From the NCBI GenBank assembly GCA_947174385.1, contig CAMWIU010000010.1, forward strand, positions 1 to 32,012: a stretch of DNA of 32,012 nucleotides, given 5' to 3'. Below, in pieces: positions 12,493 through 31,434 of the stretch. The notes under the pieces were generated by a model that was not told the DNA's origin, searched no databases, and worked only from the letters and a program-made list of their open reading frames with translations. Position 1 is the first letter of the stretch. Each line of letters opens with the position of its first letter. Made by a program: the position numbers and the translations under genes. This DNA comes from an uncultured Treponema sp. (lineage in GTDB: Bacteria; Spirochaetota; Spirochaetia; Treponematales; Treponemataceae).

Positions 12493-12584
12493 TTATGGAA
12501 TAAATATACTTGTGAATATGTAAAACTGTTGACTTTTTGCGAGATTTCAAATAGAATAGGATTTGTAAGGTATATTTATACTTT
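12493..12584 (+). repeat. 92-bp promoter-bearing repeat, copy 1
   Basis: 91/92 identical to 14998-15089 (single A/G difference at 12558 vs 15063). Contains TTGACT 12529-12534, 17 nt, TAGAAT 12552-12557; flanking IR ATAAATATAC 12500-12509/GTATATTTAT 12570-12579. Confidence 0.95.
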
Positions 12585-12614
12585 GCGAAACATGATTTTT
12601 TTAAGGAGGAAATT

Positions 12615-13649
12615 ATGAAGCGAGTTGCGCTGGGTTTAGCAATGTTTTGCTTGATTTTTTGTACACGAGCATTCGCAGAAATAAAATACATAGAGATAAA
12701 AGATGTTTCGAATGTTTCTGAAATTGAATTTTCAAATTTAAGCGACTTTGAAAAATTTGCCGTGGGCGACATTTTCTTTTGCAAAAAGACTTCGAAATCC
12801 TATGTACTTGTCGGCGGCACTTATTATTCCTACAATTTGCAAGGCTATAAAACTGTGGCGGATTTTAAAGCTGGAAGCAACTACAAAAATGCGATTGATT
12901 ATTATGAATCCGTCGAGCAAAAAATCCCAGACGCGGAACGTTTTTATTTTTACAAGTCAAATCATTTTGCGAACGGTGCTGACGCTTTGGATGCATGGGC
13001 GAACGGTTGGGGCGAGAAATTTGAGCGTGCCAATTATGCTAGATTTGAAGATGAAGAAATTTATCTTGGCTCGCCGATTTCCAATTTGTATTATTCTGCC
13101 AAACAATATGGAATCAACACTTTATCGGAATGCGTTGAACTTCTTTTTTTGCAAAAGCATGAATTCGAATCAATGGAAATTTACAGAATCGCAAAGTCCA
13201 AAGGATTTAAAGAAAATTCGGATTATCAAAGCGCAATCGCAAAAGGCTTTGAAACAAAAGAAGTTTGGGACGCTGCTAGAAAATTGAATCTTGCAAATGC
13301 CAGTGAATATCAAAATTATATTGCGTTTGTCGCAGAAATCGGAAATAAAATTGACGAAAAAGATTTTACGAAAGAAGCCGCAGTGGTTTATCATTATATT
13401 GCTAAAGTTTCAAAAGATAATTATTCGCTCGAAAAACTGATTGAAAATTGCAATAGTCAAATGAAAAATGAGAATGCGAATGTAAAACTTGCGATAGAAA
13501 AATATGTCGAAAAAAAAGTTGATTATTACAAAAACAGTTTTGAAAAAATGGAAAATTATTTGAGTAATTCGCTTGTTTTGAGAATCATAGAGAATTCAAA
13601 GGAACTCGGAAAATACAATGAAAAGAATGATGTGTTCAACAAGAAATAA
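12615..13649 (+). CDS. Secreted protein of unknown function
   Basis: AAGGAGG RBS; signal peptide MKRVALGLAMFCLIFCTRAFA; no family recognised; AT-rich. Confidence 0.75.
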   Translation: MKRVALGLAMFCLIFCTRAFAEIKYIEIKDVSNVSEIEFSNLSDFEKFAVGDIFFCKKTSKSYVLVGGTYYSYNLQGYKTVADFKAGSNYKNAIDYYESVEQKIPDAERFYFYKSNHFANGADALDAWANGWGEKFERANYARFEDEEIYLGSPISNLYYSAKQYGINTLSECVELLFLQKHEFESMEIYRIAKSKGFKENSDYQSAIAKGFETKEVWDAARKLNLANASEYQNYIAFVAEIGNKIDEKDFTKEAAVVYHYIAKVSKDNYSLEKLIENCNSQMKNENANVKLAIEKYVEKKVDYYKNSFEKMENYLSNSLVLRIIENSKELGKYNEKNDVFNKK

Positions 13650-13707: not shown

Positions 13708-13731
13708 AAAGCCTCGTAAAAACGAGGCTTT
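13708..13731. terminator. Bidirectional intrinsic terminator between convergent genes
   Basis: AAAGCCTCG-taaaaa-CGAGGCTTT with A tract on the left and T-rich sequence on the right. Confidence 0.85.
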
Positions 13732-13770: not shown

Positions 13771-14772
13771 TTAGCCAAGCAATTCTTTCAAAGCATTTAT
13801 GGCGGCTTCTTTTTTTGCCTCTTTTTTTGTGGTTCGCTTGCCACAAAAATACTTGTCGAAAGATTCTAAATCAATTTTGCAAATCCAAAAATGCTCATTT
13901 GTTTCTTCATCAAATCCTTCTTCCCAAATGTATTTCGGCTCGTCAATCCAATTGTGTTGATATAATTCTTGAAGTTGACTGACTGGGTTTTCGTGATTTA
14001 TTTTGTCTACTATACGATTTTTCATATATTCACGTTCGAATGCTTCGCATGCTTTTTTTGCGGCTTCCATTTTGGCTTCAAACGCGGTATTTCCCGTAGA
14101 TTTAAATTTAAGAGGTGGATATGGGCATAGGGAGCGGTGAAGGGTCAATGTGCAAGTATAAGTAACACCACCAAGATACATGAGTGTTAAAAAAGAATCA
14201 TCGGAAAGGATATATGGACTTTTATGGCAATAATCTTGAAGACGCCGAATATAATTTTCCGCATATTTTCCAGCACCCAGCATTGTGGTGCACACGGGAA
14301 AAATTTTTTCAAAATTCCAATTTGAATCAATGGCGACCGCGCCAAGAATTGCTTCAAACAAATCCTCTGCCACCGTCGCTTTGTTCCGAACTTCGTTGCT
14401 TTCGTCGCTTTTGCCCAAACGCAAGTAGGATTCAAGACCAAGATTCCAAATGCATTTTGACAGCATTTCAGTATCAGAATAATATGAAAACAATTTTGAA
14501 AGTTCGCCTTCATTCTTTTGCGAAAAATAATATTTTTGCACTAGAGAATAAGATTGCCTTTGTTCTTTTGCAAAAGATTGCTCAAACCATTTTGTCAAAT
14601 AAATTGACAAAACCTTGTCCCCATAAAATTCCAATACTTCATTGTCAGCACATTCGGAATGCTCGTTCGCGTAAGAACGTCGAGTGAACGCTTGTTCAAG
14701 AAGTTTTTGGTTGCTGAAAGAATATCCAATTTTGGATTGAATATCCTCGCCATTGAAATTTTTGTTTTCCAT
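13771..14772 (-). CDS. RNase III-family protein with catalytic domain and two dsRBD-like domains
   Basis: DNEVLEFYGDKVLS (E45, E48, D52) and ATVAEDLFEAILGAV (D137, E140) keep canonical RNase III acidic residues; C-terminal dsRBD PVSQLQELYQ...GKRTTKKEAKKEAAINALKEL; middle segment ending KSTGNTAFEAKMEAAKKACEAF resembles a second dsRBD. Confidence 0.88.
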   Translation of the reverse strand: MENKNFNGEDIQSKIGYSFSNQKLLEQAFTRRSYANEHSECADNEVLEFYGDKVLSIYLTKWFEQSFAKEQRQSYSLVQKYYFSQKNEGELSKLFSYYSDTEMLSKCIWNLGLESYLRLGKSDESNEVRNKATVAEDLFEAILGAVAIDSNWNFEKIFPVCTTMLGAGKYAENYIRRLQDYCHKSPYILSDDSFLTLMYLGGVTYTCTLTLHRSLCPYPPLKFKSTGNTAFEAKMEAAKKACEAFEREYMKNRIVDKINHENPVSQLQELYQHNWIDEPKYIWEEGFDEETNEHFWICKIDLESFDKYFCGKRTTKKEAKKEAAINALKELLG

Positions 14773-14997
14773 AAAGTCCTCCTAAAGTTTTTAAGAGGCA
14801 CAATCATCGTGCGCAATCGAGAAGATTTTTTGGCGGATGATTAACAAAATAGAAAAATTAAAAATCAATATCGTAGAAAACCACAGCGCAATAATCAACG
14901 ATAATAAAAGTTAATCAAAATATTTTGTCTTTCGTGCCTTTTTTTCAGCATAATATAATTTTGTGTTTCTGTCAAGAAGTTTTGTTATGATATTTTC

Positions 14998-15089
14998 TTA
15001 TGGAATAAATATACTTGTGAATATGTAAAACTGTTGACTTTTTGCGAGATTTCAAATAGAATGGGATTTGTAAGGTATATTTATACTTT
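14998..15089 (+). repeat. 92-bp promoter-bearing repeat, copy 2
   Basis: See copy 1 (12493-12584); -35 at 15034-15039, -10 at 15057-15062. Confidence 0.95.
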
Positions 15090-15124
15090 ATGACATACGA
15101 TTTCTATTTTTCAAGGAGGTTTTT

Positions 15125-20431: not shown

Positions 20432-22555
20432 ATGGCCATTCAAATTGAAAAATCAGCTCCGCCAAGACCCGTAATTGCGGTGGATAAAGACAAGTGCGTC
20501 AACTGTCATCTTTGCATTACGGTTTGCCCTTCGAAAATGTGTAACGACGGAAGTGGCGATTATGTAAACGTGAACAGCGATTTGTGCATTGGATGCGGTG
20601 CGTGTATCGCGGCGTGTATGCATGGAGCGCGAAAAGGATTGGATGACTTTGATGCTTTTATGGACGATTTGAAGAAAGGCCAGGACATCATCGCCATCGT
20701 CGCGCCTGCCATCGCGGTTTCGTTCCGAGGGAAAGATTTGGAATTCAACGGCTATCTCAAGTCGATTGGCGTGAAGGCTGTTTTCGACGTAGGTTTGGGG
20801 GCGGAACTCACCACAAAAACTTATGTGGAATACATCAAGCGGCGCGATCCGAAAATGGTCATTTCGCAGCCGTGCCCCGCTTTGGTAACTTATTGCGAAA
20901 TCTATCGACCGAGGCTCTTGAAATTTTTGGCGCCGGCGGACAGCCCGATGCTTCACACAATGAAAATGATTCGCGAATTCTATCCTGAATACAAGAATTG
21001 CAAAATCGCGGCGATATCTCCATGCTATGCCAAACGGCGAGAATTCGACGACACGGGCTACGGCGACTACAATGTCACGATGAAATCGCTGGGCGAATAT
21101 TTTGAAGCGAATCAAATCAATTTGGATCGTTTCCCAAAAACCGAATACGACAATCCGGAAGCCGAGCGAGCCGTCCTTTATTCCACGCCAGGCGGACTTA
21201 TGCGCACTGCGGAGCGTTTTGTTCCGGGCATTTCAGGCGTTACCCGAAAAATCGAAGGACAGCCGCATGTCATTGAATATTTCGCCCATCTCAACAAAGC
21301 GATTGAAAAAGGCGCGGCTCCGCTTTTCAAGCTGATTGACTGCTTGAACTGCCAAGAAGGATGCAACGGCGGCGCGGGCACTTACAAGACGCACGAGCTT
21401 CTGCTTGACGAAATGGAATCGTATGTAGAAAAACGCCAGCAAGAACGCCAGAAAAAATTGGGAACATTCCAATCGATGCGCGCGCAAAAAAAATACAACA
21501 AGATGCTCGAAAAGTATTGGAACAAGGATTTGTATGTCCGCACTTACACCGACAAAAGCGAAAGTTTCATTTCCACGATAAAGCCGCCCACTCAGGAACA
21601 AATCGAAGAGACTTTCAAGCAAATGGGCAAAACAGAGGCGCGCGATATTTTGAACTGTCGTGCATGCGGCTACCGTTCGTGCGAGCAGATGGCGGTGGCG
21701 ATCATCAACGGACGCAACAAGCCGGAAAACTGCCATCACTTCCTTTCGATGCGCTTCCGCCAGTCCACAGAAGCGAAGTCTGCGGAAATTCAGGAAATCA
21801 TTTCTTCTATGACTCAGGAATCGCTTGAACAAATCAGCGTGAGCGAACGTGAAGTTTCATCAATGTCTGGCATAGCGATGGAAATGCAGGAAAGCGTTTC
21901 CACTTCGTCTTCCGCAATCGAGGAAATGATTGCCAACATTCAGTCGATAAACAATGTTCTTGCCACGAACGCGCAGAGCATAAATGCGCTTTCCAAGGCG
22001 ACGGAAACTGGAAAAGTCAGCATAAACAAGGTCGGCGAATTGGTGGGCAAAATCGAAGAGTCTTCCGCCAACCTTACGGAAATGAGCCACGTGATTATGA
22101 AAATCGCTTCGCAGACAAACTTGCTTGCGATGAACGCTTCAATTGAGGCGGCGCATGCTGGAGATGCCGGACGAGGATTCGCGGTCGTTGCTGAAGAAAT
22201 CAGAAAGCTCGCGGATTCTTCCAACAAGGAAGCCAAGAAAATATCCGATGTTTTGAGCGGGATTCAGGAGCTCATTGAAGGCGCGTTCGAAAAGACGAAT
22301 ACGGCTCAAAAAGAAATCGAACACATTGTCGCCCTTTCCGACACGGTGCAAAATCAGGAACAAGTCGTTAAGAGCGCGGTTTCCGAGCAGGCCGAGGGCG
22401 GAAAACTTTTGCTCACTTCTTTGCAAAAGATGCGGGACAATGCGAACAGCGTGAACAATGCCGTTTCGGATTTGAAAAACACCACCTCCAAAGTCAACGA
22501 TGCTATCCGAAATATTGGACACAGTATTGTCGGAAAGGAAACGTTGGCTGTGTAG
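20432..22555 (+). CDS. Sensory [FeFe]-hydrogenase-like protein fused to a methyl-accepting chemotaxis signalling domain
   Basis: Two 4Fe-4S ferredoxin motifs ([22 protein letters not shown]); H-cluster motifs [32 protein letters not shown]; FeS motif [12 protein letters not shown] tip [38 protein letters not shown]. No obvious TM helix. Confidence 0.93.
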
Positions 22556-29772: not shown

Positions 29773-31434
29773 ATGAATATTGATGAATTGAAAACGCTTG
29801 CGCAAAATGCGCCGTCCGACGCGCCGCTTGCCGAAAACGAGACGCTCAAAAAATTTCACGAAACGCTCGACGAGCTTCGGCGCGACGGCGTGAACAAAAT
29901 CGCCGATTTGAAGCAGGAAATTGCGATTGCGAAAAAGAATAAAATGATTTCCGCCGACGAACGGGAAAAATTGATTTCCGACTACAACGCGCAAATTGAA
30001 AAGGCGAAAATTGTCGCCGCGAACAACAAGGTTGCCGACGCGGAACTTTCGAAAATCGGCGTTCAATATGCTAACGCCGCGGCGGAAAAATACATCGCCA
30101 AAGTTGACGCGGAACAAGACAAAATCATCGCGGAAACAAAATCGAATCTCGAAAAGGAAATCGCGAAAATCAAAGCGGACGGCGTGGCGCGAATCGCTTC
30201 CGCTCAAACTGATGTGGACAAGGAAACCGCGAAGTACGAACTCAAGTCCGCTTTGTTCGATGCGAAGAATCGCGCACAAACTACGATTGATCGATGCAAG
30301 GACGCAAAAAAGCAGGCGTTCACCGATCACATTCAGGAAAATCGTTCTTTGCGCAACGGAAAAACGGATTTCATGGAAAATCGCAAGTTGGCGTGGAAAA
30401 ATTATGTCTACAATTTCAAGGCTTCGAAATTTTTCTTGGACAATGGGCTTTACATCGCGATTTGCATTTTCTTCATTGCGTGCATCATAATCGCGCCGCT
30501 TTCGGGGCAAGGCGCGCTTTTGACTTTGCAAAATATTTTGGTAATCCTCGAGCAATCTTCGACGCGAATGTTCTACGCGCTCGGAGTGGCGGGACTTATT
30601 TTGCTGGCAGGAACGGATTTGAGCGTGGGACGAATGGTCGCGCTTGGCGCGGTGACGACAGGTTTGATTTTGCATCCAGGAATGAACATCGTTACATTCT
30701 TCAATTTGGGACCGTGGGATTTTACCGCGCTTCCGATGGGCGCAAGGCTCGTGATCGCGCTTTTGCTTTCGATTGTGCTTTGCACGATGTTCAGCGCGTT
30801 CGCAGGATTCTTTTCCGCGAAATTGAAAATCCATCCGTTCATTTCAACGATGTCAACCCAATTGATAATTTACGGCTTGCTTTTCTTCGGAACTTCCGGA
30901 ACGCCAGTCGGCTCGATTGACGGAAGCATAAAAGATTTGCTCGGCGGACGCTGGATTTTAGGAAGCCTCACTGTTCCGAAATTGATTGTGCCTGCGGCAA
31001 TTGCCGTAATCGTGGCATGGTTCATTTGGAACAAAACGACGTTCGGAAAAAACATGTACGCCGTGGGCGGCAACGCCGAAGCCGCGAGCGTAAGCGGAAT
31101 CAGCGTTTTTTGGACCACGTTGAGTGTCTTCATAATGGCGGGAATTTTTTACGGATGCGGCTCGTTCTTGGAAGCGTTCCGCGCCAATGCCAGCGCGGGC
31201 ACAGGACAAGGCTTCGAAATGGACGCGATCGCGGCATGCGTGGTCGGCGGCATTTCGTTCAACGGCGGAATTGGAAAAATCAGCGGCGCGGCTTTGGGCG
31301 TAATCATTTTCACAAGTTTGACATATTGCCTCACGTTCTTGATGATTGACACGAACTTGCAATTCGTCATAAAAGGCTTGATCATCATCGCGGCCGTCGC
31401 GCTCGACAGCATCAAATATCTCAAACGCAAATAA
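29773..31434 (+). CDS. mglC: Galactose/methyl galactoside ABC transporter permease with long N-terminal coiled-coil extension
   Basis: RbsC/MglC-type permease from ~aa 220 (LILLAGTDLSVGRMVALGAVTTGLILHPGMN; AVGGNAEAASVSGISV). The GGAGG RBS before 29773 supports translation of the ~220-aa charged N-terminal region. Confidence 0.9.
   Translation: MNIDELKTLAQNAPSDAPLAENETLKKFHETLDELRRDGVNKIADLKQEIAIAKKNKMISADEREKLISDYNAQIEKAKIVAANNKVADAELSKIGVQYANAAAEKYIAKVDAEQDKIIAETKSNLEKEIAKIKADGVARIASAQTDVDKETAKYELKSALFDAKNRAQTTIDRCKDAKKQAFTDHIQENRSLRNGKTDFMENRKLAWKNYVYNFKASKFFLDNGLYIAICIFFIACIIIAPLSGQGALLTLQNILVILEQSSTRMFYALGVAGLILLAGTDLSVGRMVALGAVTTGLILHPGMNIVTFFNLGPWDFTALPMGARLVIALLLSIVLCTMFSAFAGFFSAKLKIHPFISTMSTQLIIYGLLFFGTSGTPVGSIDGSIKDLLGGRWILGSLTVPKLIVPAAIAVIVAWFIWNKTTFGKNMYAVGGNAEAASVSGISVFWTTLSVFIMAGIFYGCGSFLEAFRANASAGTGQGFEMDAIAACVVGGISFNGGIGKISGAALGVIIFTSLTYCLTFLMIDTNLQFVIKGLIIIAAVALDSIKYLKRK

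Follow-up and report, generated by a model that had tools for sequence, protein, structure and literature searches.

Introduction

Textbook bacterial RNase III carries one dsRBD and is present as one copy per genome. A gene found in 32,012 nucleotides of DNA from an uncultured Treponema sp. (assembly GCA_947174385.1, contig CAMWIU010000010.1; this whole stretch is hereafter called the window) raises the question of whether bacteria also harbour an RNase III of another build, and what such an enzyme would do beside the ordinary one. The original prediction described it as an accessory RNase III with apparent tandem dsRBDs, in a bacterial Dicer-like layout. Here, we report a computational analysis of this protein, its relatives and their genomic surroundings.

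An intact gene in a repeat-bracketed segment

The open reading frame is present as predicted and is a real, intact gene; it lies on the minus strand, a point that had not been mentioned before (Table 1). The promoter-like site and the terminator-like hairpin on either side of it are candidates, as consensus matches are not proof. The gene is indeed AT-rich, with a G+C content of 0.370 against 0.465 for the whole window and a GC3 of 0.33 against about 0.57 for three neighbouring core-type genes, and its context is not a housekeeping one.

Table 1. Features of the accessory RNase III locus (coordinates in the window)
Feature	Position	Strand	Remarks
Accessory RNase III gene	13771..14772	-	333 aa, ATG start; ORF list, Pfam, NCBIfam, AlphaFold
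Shine-Dalgarno AGGAGG	14778..14783	-	5 nt upstream of the accessory RNase III ATG; sequence
Candidate sigma-70-like promoter TTGACA-17-TATGCT	14947..14975	-	consensus match only
Candidate bidirectional intrinsic terminator-like hairpin	13708..13731		between the accessory RNase III gene and the convergent gene 12615-13649; consensus match
RNase III domain	14278..14751	-	residues 8-165; catalytic E48, D52, D137, E140; E45 at the E. coli E38 position
dsRBD1	14002..14259	-	residues ~172-257; aligns with the ordinary bacterial RNase III dsRBD; some region-3 lysines lost
dsRBD2 (extra)	13774..13992	-	residues ~261-333; KKxxK kept; GNPxWxC signature in beta1-beta2 region
Convergent AT-rich gene	12615..13649	+	344 aa; signal peptide judged by eye; no Pfam family; inside the repeat-bracketed segment
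Left copy of 106-bp direct repeat (94%)	12493..12598	+	promoter-like TTGACT-17-TAGAAT
Right copy of 106-bp direct repeat	14998..15103	+	

Together with the convergent gene, the accessory RNase III gene makes up an AT-rich segment (G+C 0.34-0.37) bracketed by a 106-bp direct repeat that occurs in the genome assembly as these two copies only. In the congener G004, genes for an XRE regulator and a CAP-domain lipoprotein like those flanking the segment are adjacent without it, in a different relative orientation, the XRE regulators of G004 and of the window having been matched by eye. This suggests that the bracketed two-gene segment was inserted between flanking genes. The segment has no Rfam match, and no recognised defence or mobile-element gene adjoins the window copy, which stands alone, as do most of its relatives.

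Two other genes of the window deserve a mention. On the plus strand, 20432-22555 encodes a 707-aa protein in which a methyl-accepting chemotaxis signalling domain (2.3e-28) is fused to ferredoxin domains, an Fe-S domain and the large-subunit domain of an iron-only hydrogenase (1.1e-30). Genes of the hydE-like, hydG-like and hydF kinds flank it, and it is possibly a soluble H2-sensing chemoreceptor. On the same strand, 29773-31434 encodes an ABC permease of the sugar type (BPD_transp_2 at 255-541), whose charged N-terminal extension of about 200 aa is unusual.

A conserved active site in a diverged RNase III

The window protein belongs to the RNase III superfamily: its RNase III domain keeps the catalytic acidic residues. 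Pfam Ribonucleas_3_3 matches residues 21-150 (2.1e-18), and the domain aligns with ordinary bacterial RNase III across its length. As had been proposed, the protein is nonetheless divergent from the standard enzyme: it scores 123.9 bits against the NCBIfam RNaseIII equivalog (TIGR02191), under the cut-off of 166.25.

None of E48, D52, D137 and E140 varies in the alignment of 115 full-length family members (115/115), and E45 is kept in 110/115. The original prediction had placed all five residues correctly but counted E45 among the catalytic ones. By spacing, E45 corresponds to E38 of E. coli RNase III, an RNA-contacting glutamate distant from the cleavage site (PMC9291653), so that the catalytic set is restricted to the other four. 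The name “Bacterial Dicer” has been given to an engineered E. coli RNase III in which E38, E65 and Q165 are changed to alanine (PMC9291653); Dicer-like behaviour by this means is not inherent to the family, which keeps the equivalent of E38.

A predicted tandem of dsRBDs

Pfam finds the C-terminal dsRBD of the window protein (263-331, 5.1e-10) and no middle one, and it finds two dsrm stretches in each of two relatives. The AlphaFold model, computed from an alignment of 28 relatives (mean pLDDT 90.5, pTM 0.75), has the alpha-beta-beta-beta-alpha order of a dsRBD at 174-255 (helix 174-183, strands 194-198, 205-213 and 221-227, helix 230-255) and again at 263-332. The model of a distant member, the Lachnospira homologue, built from a separate alignment, has the identical order of secondary structures (pLDDT 89.6). 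In hhalign, a profile of the middle segment built from 94 non-redundant family members reaches 98.0% probability against the dsRBDs of housekeeping RNase IIIs (E 1.8e-13) and 97.7% against the C-terminal dsRBD of the family itself, versus 0.1% for RNase III domains used as controls. Both approaches show the middle segment to be a dsRBD, in agreement with the original prediction, which a different fold of this domain would have refuted; the window protein has two dsRBDs downstream of a single RNase III domain.

A third line of evidence is the family profile, which matches the tandem dsRBDs of PKR (1qu6) across both domains (E 7.5e-7 for positions 176-325); its matches to solved RNase III structures extend through dsRBD1. 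These matches indicate that dsRBD1 is the ordinary dsRBD of RNase III and that dsRBD2 is the extra one. Across the 115 members, the region-3 lysines of dsRBD2 are kept (K316 in 107/115, K317 in 99/115 and K320 in 108/115), whereas the canonical RNA-contacting lysines of dsRBD1 are partly kept; judging from these residues, dsRBD2 would be the stronger canonical binder of the two. W296 is invariant and lies in the family signature GNPxWxC of dsRBD2, of which the window copy keeps only W and C. Finally, dsRBD1 is absent from a few relatives on viral contigs (L104-L106), and tandem dsRBDs are thus dispensable in some lineages.

Comparison with known RNase III enzymes

With bacterial class I enzymes (E. 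coli, A. aeolicus and T. maritima, 1o0w), the window protein shares the catalytic acids, and its dsRBD1 corresponds to their single dsRBD. It differs from them by the addition of dsRBD2, by its score below the equivalog cut-off, by its accessory status and by its position across a long branch with 100% support. Class I is defined by a single C-terminal dsRBD, and the window protein has two.

Of the bacterial Dicer-likeness put forward in the original prediction, only the layout is supported. One RNase III domain with two dsRBDs is the layout of budding-yeast Dicer and of the fungal enzyme R3B2, whereas the parts of a canonical Dicer (PAZ, helicase, second RNase III domain) are missing. Indeed, while plant DCL3 (7vg2) is the top Foldseek match by E-value (2.5e-11 over 364 alignment columns), the rmsd of 14.6 means that the whole domain arrangement does not superpose. 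Plant DCLs carry a second dsRBD, but unlike DCL3 and metazoan Dicer, the window protein lacks a helicase, a PAZ and a second RNase III domain; its 333 aa hold nothing beyond an RNase III domain and a pair of dsRBDs, which sets it apart from class IV. Several giant-virus RNase IIIs also match.

K. polysporus Dcr1 (3rv0/3rv1), which has a single RNase III domain, is matched by the family profile over the RNase III domain and dsRBD1 (E 2.1e-10), and full-length budding-yeast Dcr1 carries two dsRBDs. RNase III is also the known processor of tracrRNA:crRNA. With these two points in its favour, one may imagine a Dicer feeding Argonaute, or an RNase III dedicated to crRNA/tracrRNA processing for type II CRISPR-Cas, but we give this idea very little credence. 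Budding-yeast Dcr1, acting as adjacent dimers, makes 23-nt siRNA for Argonaute, whereas a Piwi match was found in 1/98 genomes of the Treponema sample, which leaves an association with Argonaute unsupported. Nor is Cas9 associated, being present in 8/29 accessory-bearing genomes versus 13/69 others (Fisher p = 0.42), and no match to it turned up in the genome of the window.

R3B2, which takes part in a non-canonical RNAi pathway of Mucorales, has two dsRBDs behind a single RNase III domain, binds both ss and dsRNA and cuts only ssRNA, with its dsRBD2 modulating the activity (PMC8072676). The identical domain layout, and the NYN/PIN-type nucleases found among the operon partners of some relatives, would fit an enzyme of ssRNA or mRNA decay, whose dsRBDs capture RNA that the RNase III domain then cuts as single strands. 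We consider this very unlikely, as the RNase III domain of the window protein aligns with the ordinary bacterial one over its full length. R3B2, for which a loop loss and a narrowed site are described, is a fungal protein that partners RNA-dependent RNA polymerases, and its comparison with the window protein is one of described layout.

An accessory enzyme with a patchy distribution

The genome of the window encodes a separate housekeeping rnc (G000:C37) of 252 aa with one dsRBD, which scores 234.2 bits against the equivalog cut-off of 166.25. The window RNase III is therefore accessory, as predicted, and not the genome's only rnc. Nor is it common to all related spirochaetes: counting strong, non-housekeeping matches in the genus sample, the accessory type is found in 29/98 congeneric genomes. 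A separate housekeeping rnc was found in 24 of these 29 (the own genome and 23 others). In G037, G089, G024 and G053 it was not found, and in G062 it is present as a contig-end fragment only; all five are draft assemblies, 78-94% complete. In the first four, the missing rnc is probably due to assembly incompleteness, its replacement by the accessory type being less likely.

Outside the genus, an alignment-based scan of species genomes yielded at least 80 accessory loci in Clostridia and relatives, named isolates included. A scan of genome contigs with the single protein, whose peptide patterns were probably too narrow, returned no relatives. The accessory enzyme is present in 4/200 genomes of the family of Lachnospira multipara, and both RNase III types were found in 12/12 clostridial-type genomes tested. 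Further relatives lie on viral contigs and on plasmid pRUMAL01 of Ruminococcus albus 7, whose WP_013483357.1, annotated as a “ribonuclease III domain-containing protein”, is a family member (RNase III domain 150-295, dsRBD1 308-391, dsRBD2 399-465) that differs from the window protein by about 140 additional N-terminal aa. Plasmid and phage tblastn matches reflect similarity in the RNase III domain at <60% coverage, and many of the plasmid ones are annotated as ordinary rnc; pRUMAL01 is the one such match that was followed to true family membership. Altogether, this is a large, patchily distributed family, mostly of gut Clostridia and treponemes, and it is seemingly undescribed: we found no paper on it in the open-access literature, most subscription journals lying outside the search.

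In a tree of 97 rows built from the RNase III domain and dsRBD1, the housekeeping RNase IIIs are set apart by a branch of length 1.84 whose SH-aLRT support is 100%; the method was a quick one, several end branches are long and the root is for drawing only. The treponeme accessory copies are placed among copies from Bacillota and Mycoplasmatota, the pattern expected from lateral transfer. In close pairs of relatives, dN/dS is about 0.07-0.33: in these relatives the accessory RNase III is under purifying selection.

An ordinary diverged paralogue sharing redundant housekeeping work (rRNA, mRNA or sRNA processing) would account for the conserved active site, and for the four accessory-bearing drafts where no housekeeping rnc was found. 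It is nevertheless a distinctly unlikely explanation, as the distribution is patchy, the proteins form a separate long-branched group, the housekeeping rnc coexists with them in most accessory-bearing congeners and in every clostridial-type genome tested, and no rRNA or ribosomal context is seen.

Accessory RNase III genes reduced to fragments or with a broken frame were observed in congeners (G015:C10:63779, G030:C33:22894, G087:C359:2825 and G095:C111:640), which is consistent with repeated gain and loss. One contig of Merdimmobilis hominis (L177 / G393:C20:11111 and 25045) carries the accessory RNase III gene twice, with about 14 kb between the copies.

Gene neighbourhoods of the relatives

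Restriction, BREX, Gabija or Zorya-type genes are often close to relatives. Within three genes of clostridial copies, we found BrxL, GajA, GajB, ZorD, type I and II methyltransferases, two MvaI/BcnI-type enzymes and two GmrSD proteins; at the same distance from treponeme copies, type I methyltransferases and MADS-like genes. REase_II is among the PADLOC families matched near relatives. Up to three genes away, PADLOC families matched number 265 for Clostridia (144 proteins) and 175 for Treponema (144 proteins), versus 55 for controls (125 proteins), a comparison that is qualitative because families rather than proteins were counted and because the controls, 20 regions from 12 clostridial-type genomes, are a convenience sample. 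The accessory RNase III itself matches no PADLOC model.

Serine recombinases are found in 12/125 neighbourhoods and tyrosine-integrase-like genes in 10/125, these classes having been named by eye from sequence, with further support for the recombinases. On viral contigs, paired serine recombinases and phage-like genes adjoin the accessory RNase III (L096, L099 and L105). Along with the copy on pRUMAL01, these loci argue for a factor serving its carrier, be it a prophage, a plasmid or an integrative element, in RNA processing or counter-defence. Its tasks might be to mature element transcripts, to control antisense-regulated copy number or to remove duplex RNA that would trigger host immunity; a structured phage RNA can trigger bacterial immunity (PMC10686824). 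We regard such a role as unlikely, though to be taken seriously. Many copies in Clostridia and treponemes have defence genes near them and lie outside recognisable complete elements; a treponeme subgroup (L052, L055, L056 and L058) has the gene at a constant chromosomal position, next to a glucosidase-like gene; and no annotated phage record holds a relative at 80% coverage (tblastn).

A same-strand gene follows within 120 nt in 38/117 loci with room for one. These partners vary (CoiA-like in 8 treponeme loci, NYN plus LOTUS, PIN7, HNH_3, Thg1-like, a protein of about 470 aa), and a single conserved operon partner is rejected, since most copies are alone and partners differ among the rest. The NYN-LOTUS and PIN7/NYN RNases lie 6-24 nt downstream of treponeme accessory RNase III genes (L046:9905-10642, L034:3847-4581 and L053:2322-3023). 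The protein of about 470 aa is near the accessory RNase III in seven loci (L097, L107, L111-L114 and L117), and no Pfam family reaches its cut-off on it.

Possible function

We tentatively propose, at a little short of an even chance, that the window protein is a horizontally spread, competent-looking accessory RNase III working beside the housekeeping enzyme, a dimeric cutter of dsRNA carried as defence or silencing cargo against foreign duplex RNA. The enzyme would act as a homodimer and cleave duplex RNA on both strands through two-metal catalysis. A dimer with the additional dsRBD would present four duplex-binding modules, which may allow tighter binding or the selection of longer duplexes. 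Its likeliest job would be to destroy the duplex RNA of foreign elements, arising from convergent or structured phage or plasmid transcripts, or from sense-antisense pairs.

This proposal of a defence or silencing cargo builds on the conserved active site, the two dsRBDs, the selection, the patchiness, the lateral spread and the defence- or mobile-rich neighbourhoods of many relatives. B. subtilis offers a precedent: there, the essential role of RNase III is the antisense RNA-based silencing of prophage toxin mRNAs (PMC3531473). Counting against the defence reading, the window copy has no recognised defence or mobile-element neighbour, only a minority of loci have a close same-strand partner and these partners are variable, the PADLOC comparison is qualitative, the RNA-contacting lysines of dsRBD1 are partly lost, a few relatives do without dsRBD1, and no PADLOC model covers the protein.

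A bolder version would make the family a bacterial counterpart of R3B2 and budding-yeast Dicer: a mobile immune RNase III that dices foreign duplex RNA by means of its tandem dsRBDs, with no Argonaute and, in some lineages, with an operon-partner nuclease (NYN/PIN, one with LOTUS; CoiA-like; HNH) that would take over the products or act alongside it. We consider it quite improbable.

Beyond the window, our analysis brings out a large accessory family of gut and rumen Clostridia, some Mycoplasmatota and treponemes, with a layout otherwise described for fungal silencing enzymes. If its members do restrict foreign duplex RNA, they would represent a direct dsRNA-cutting immune enzyme in bacteria. 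Bacterial Dicer-like dsRNA immunity would then be testable with a single gene from the culturable Ruminococcus albus 7, Lachnospira multipara or Pseudobutyrivibrio xylanivorans.
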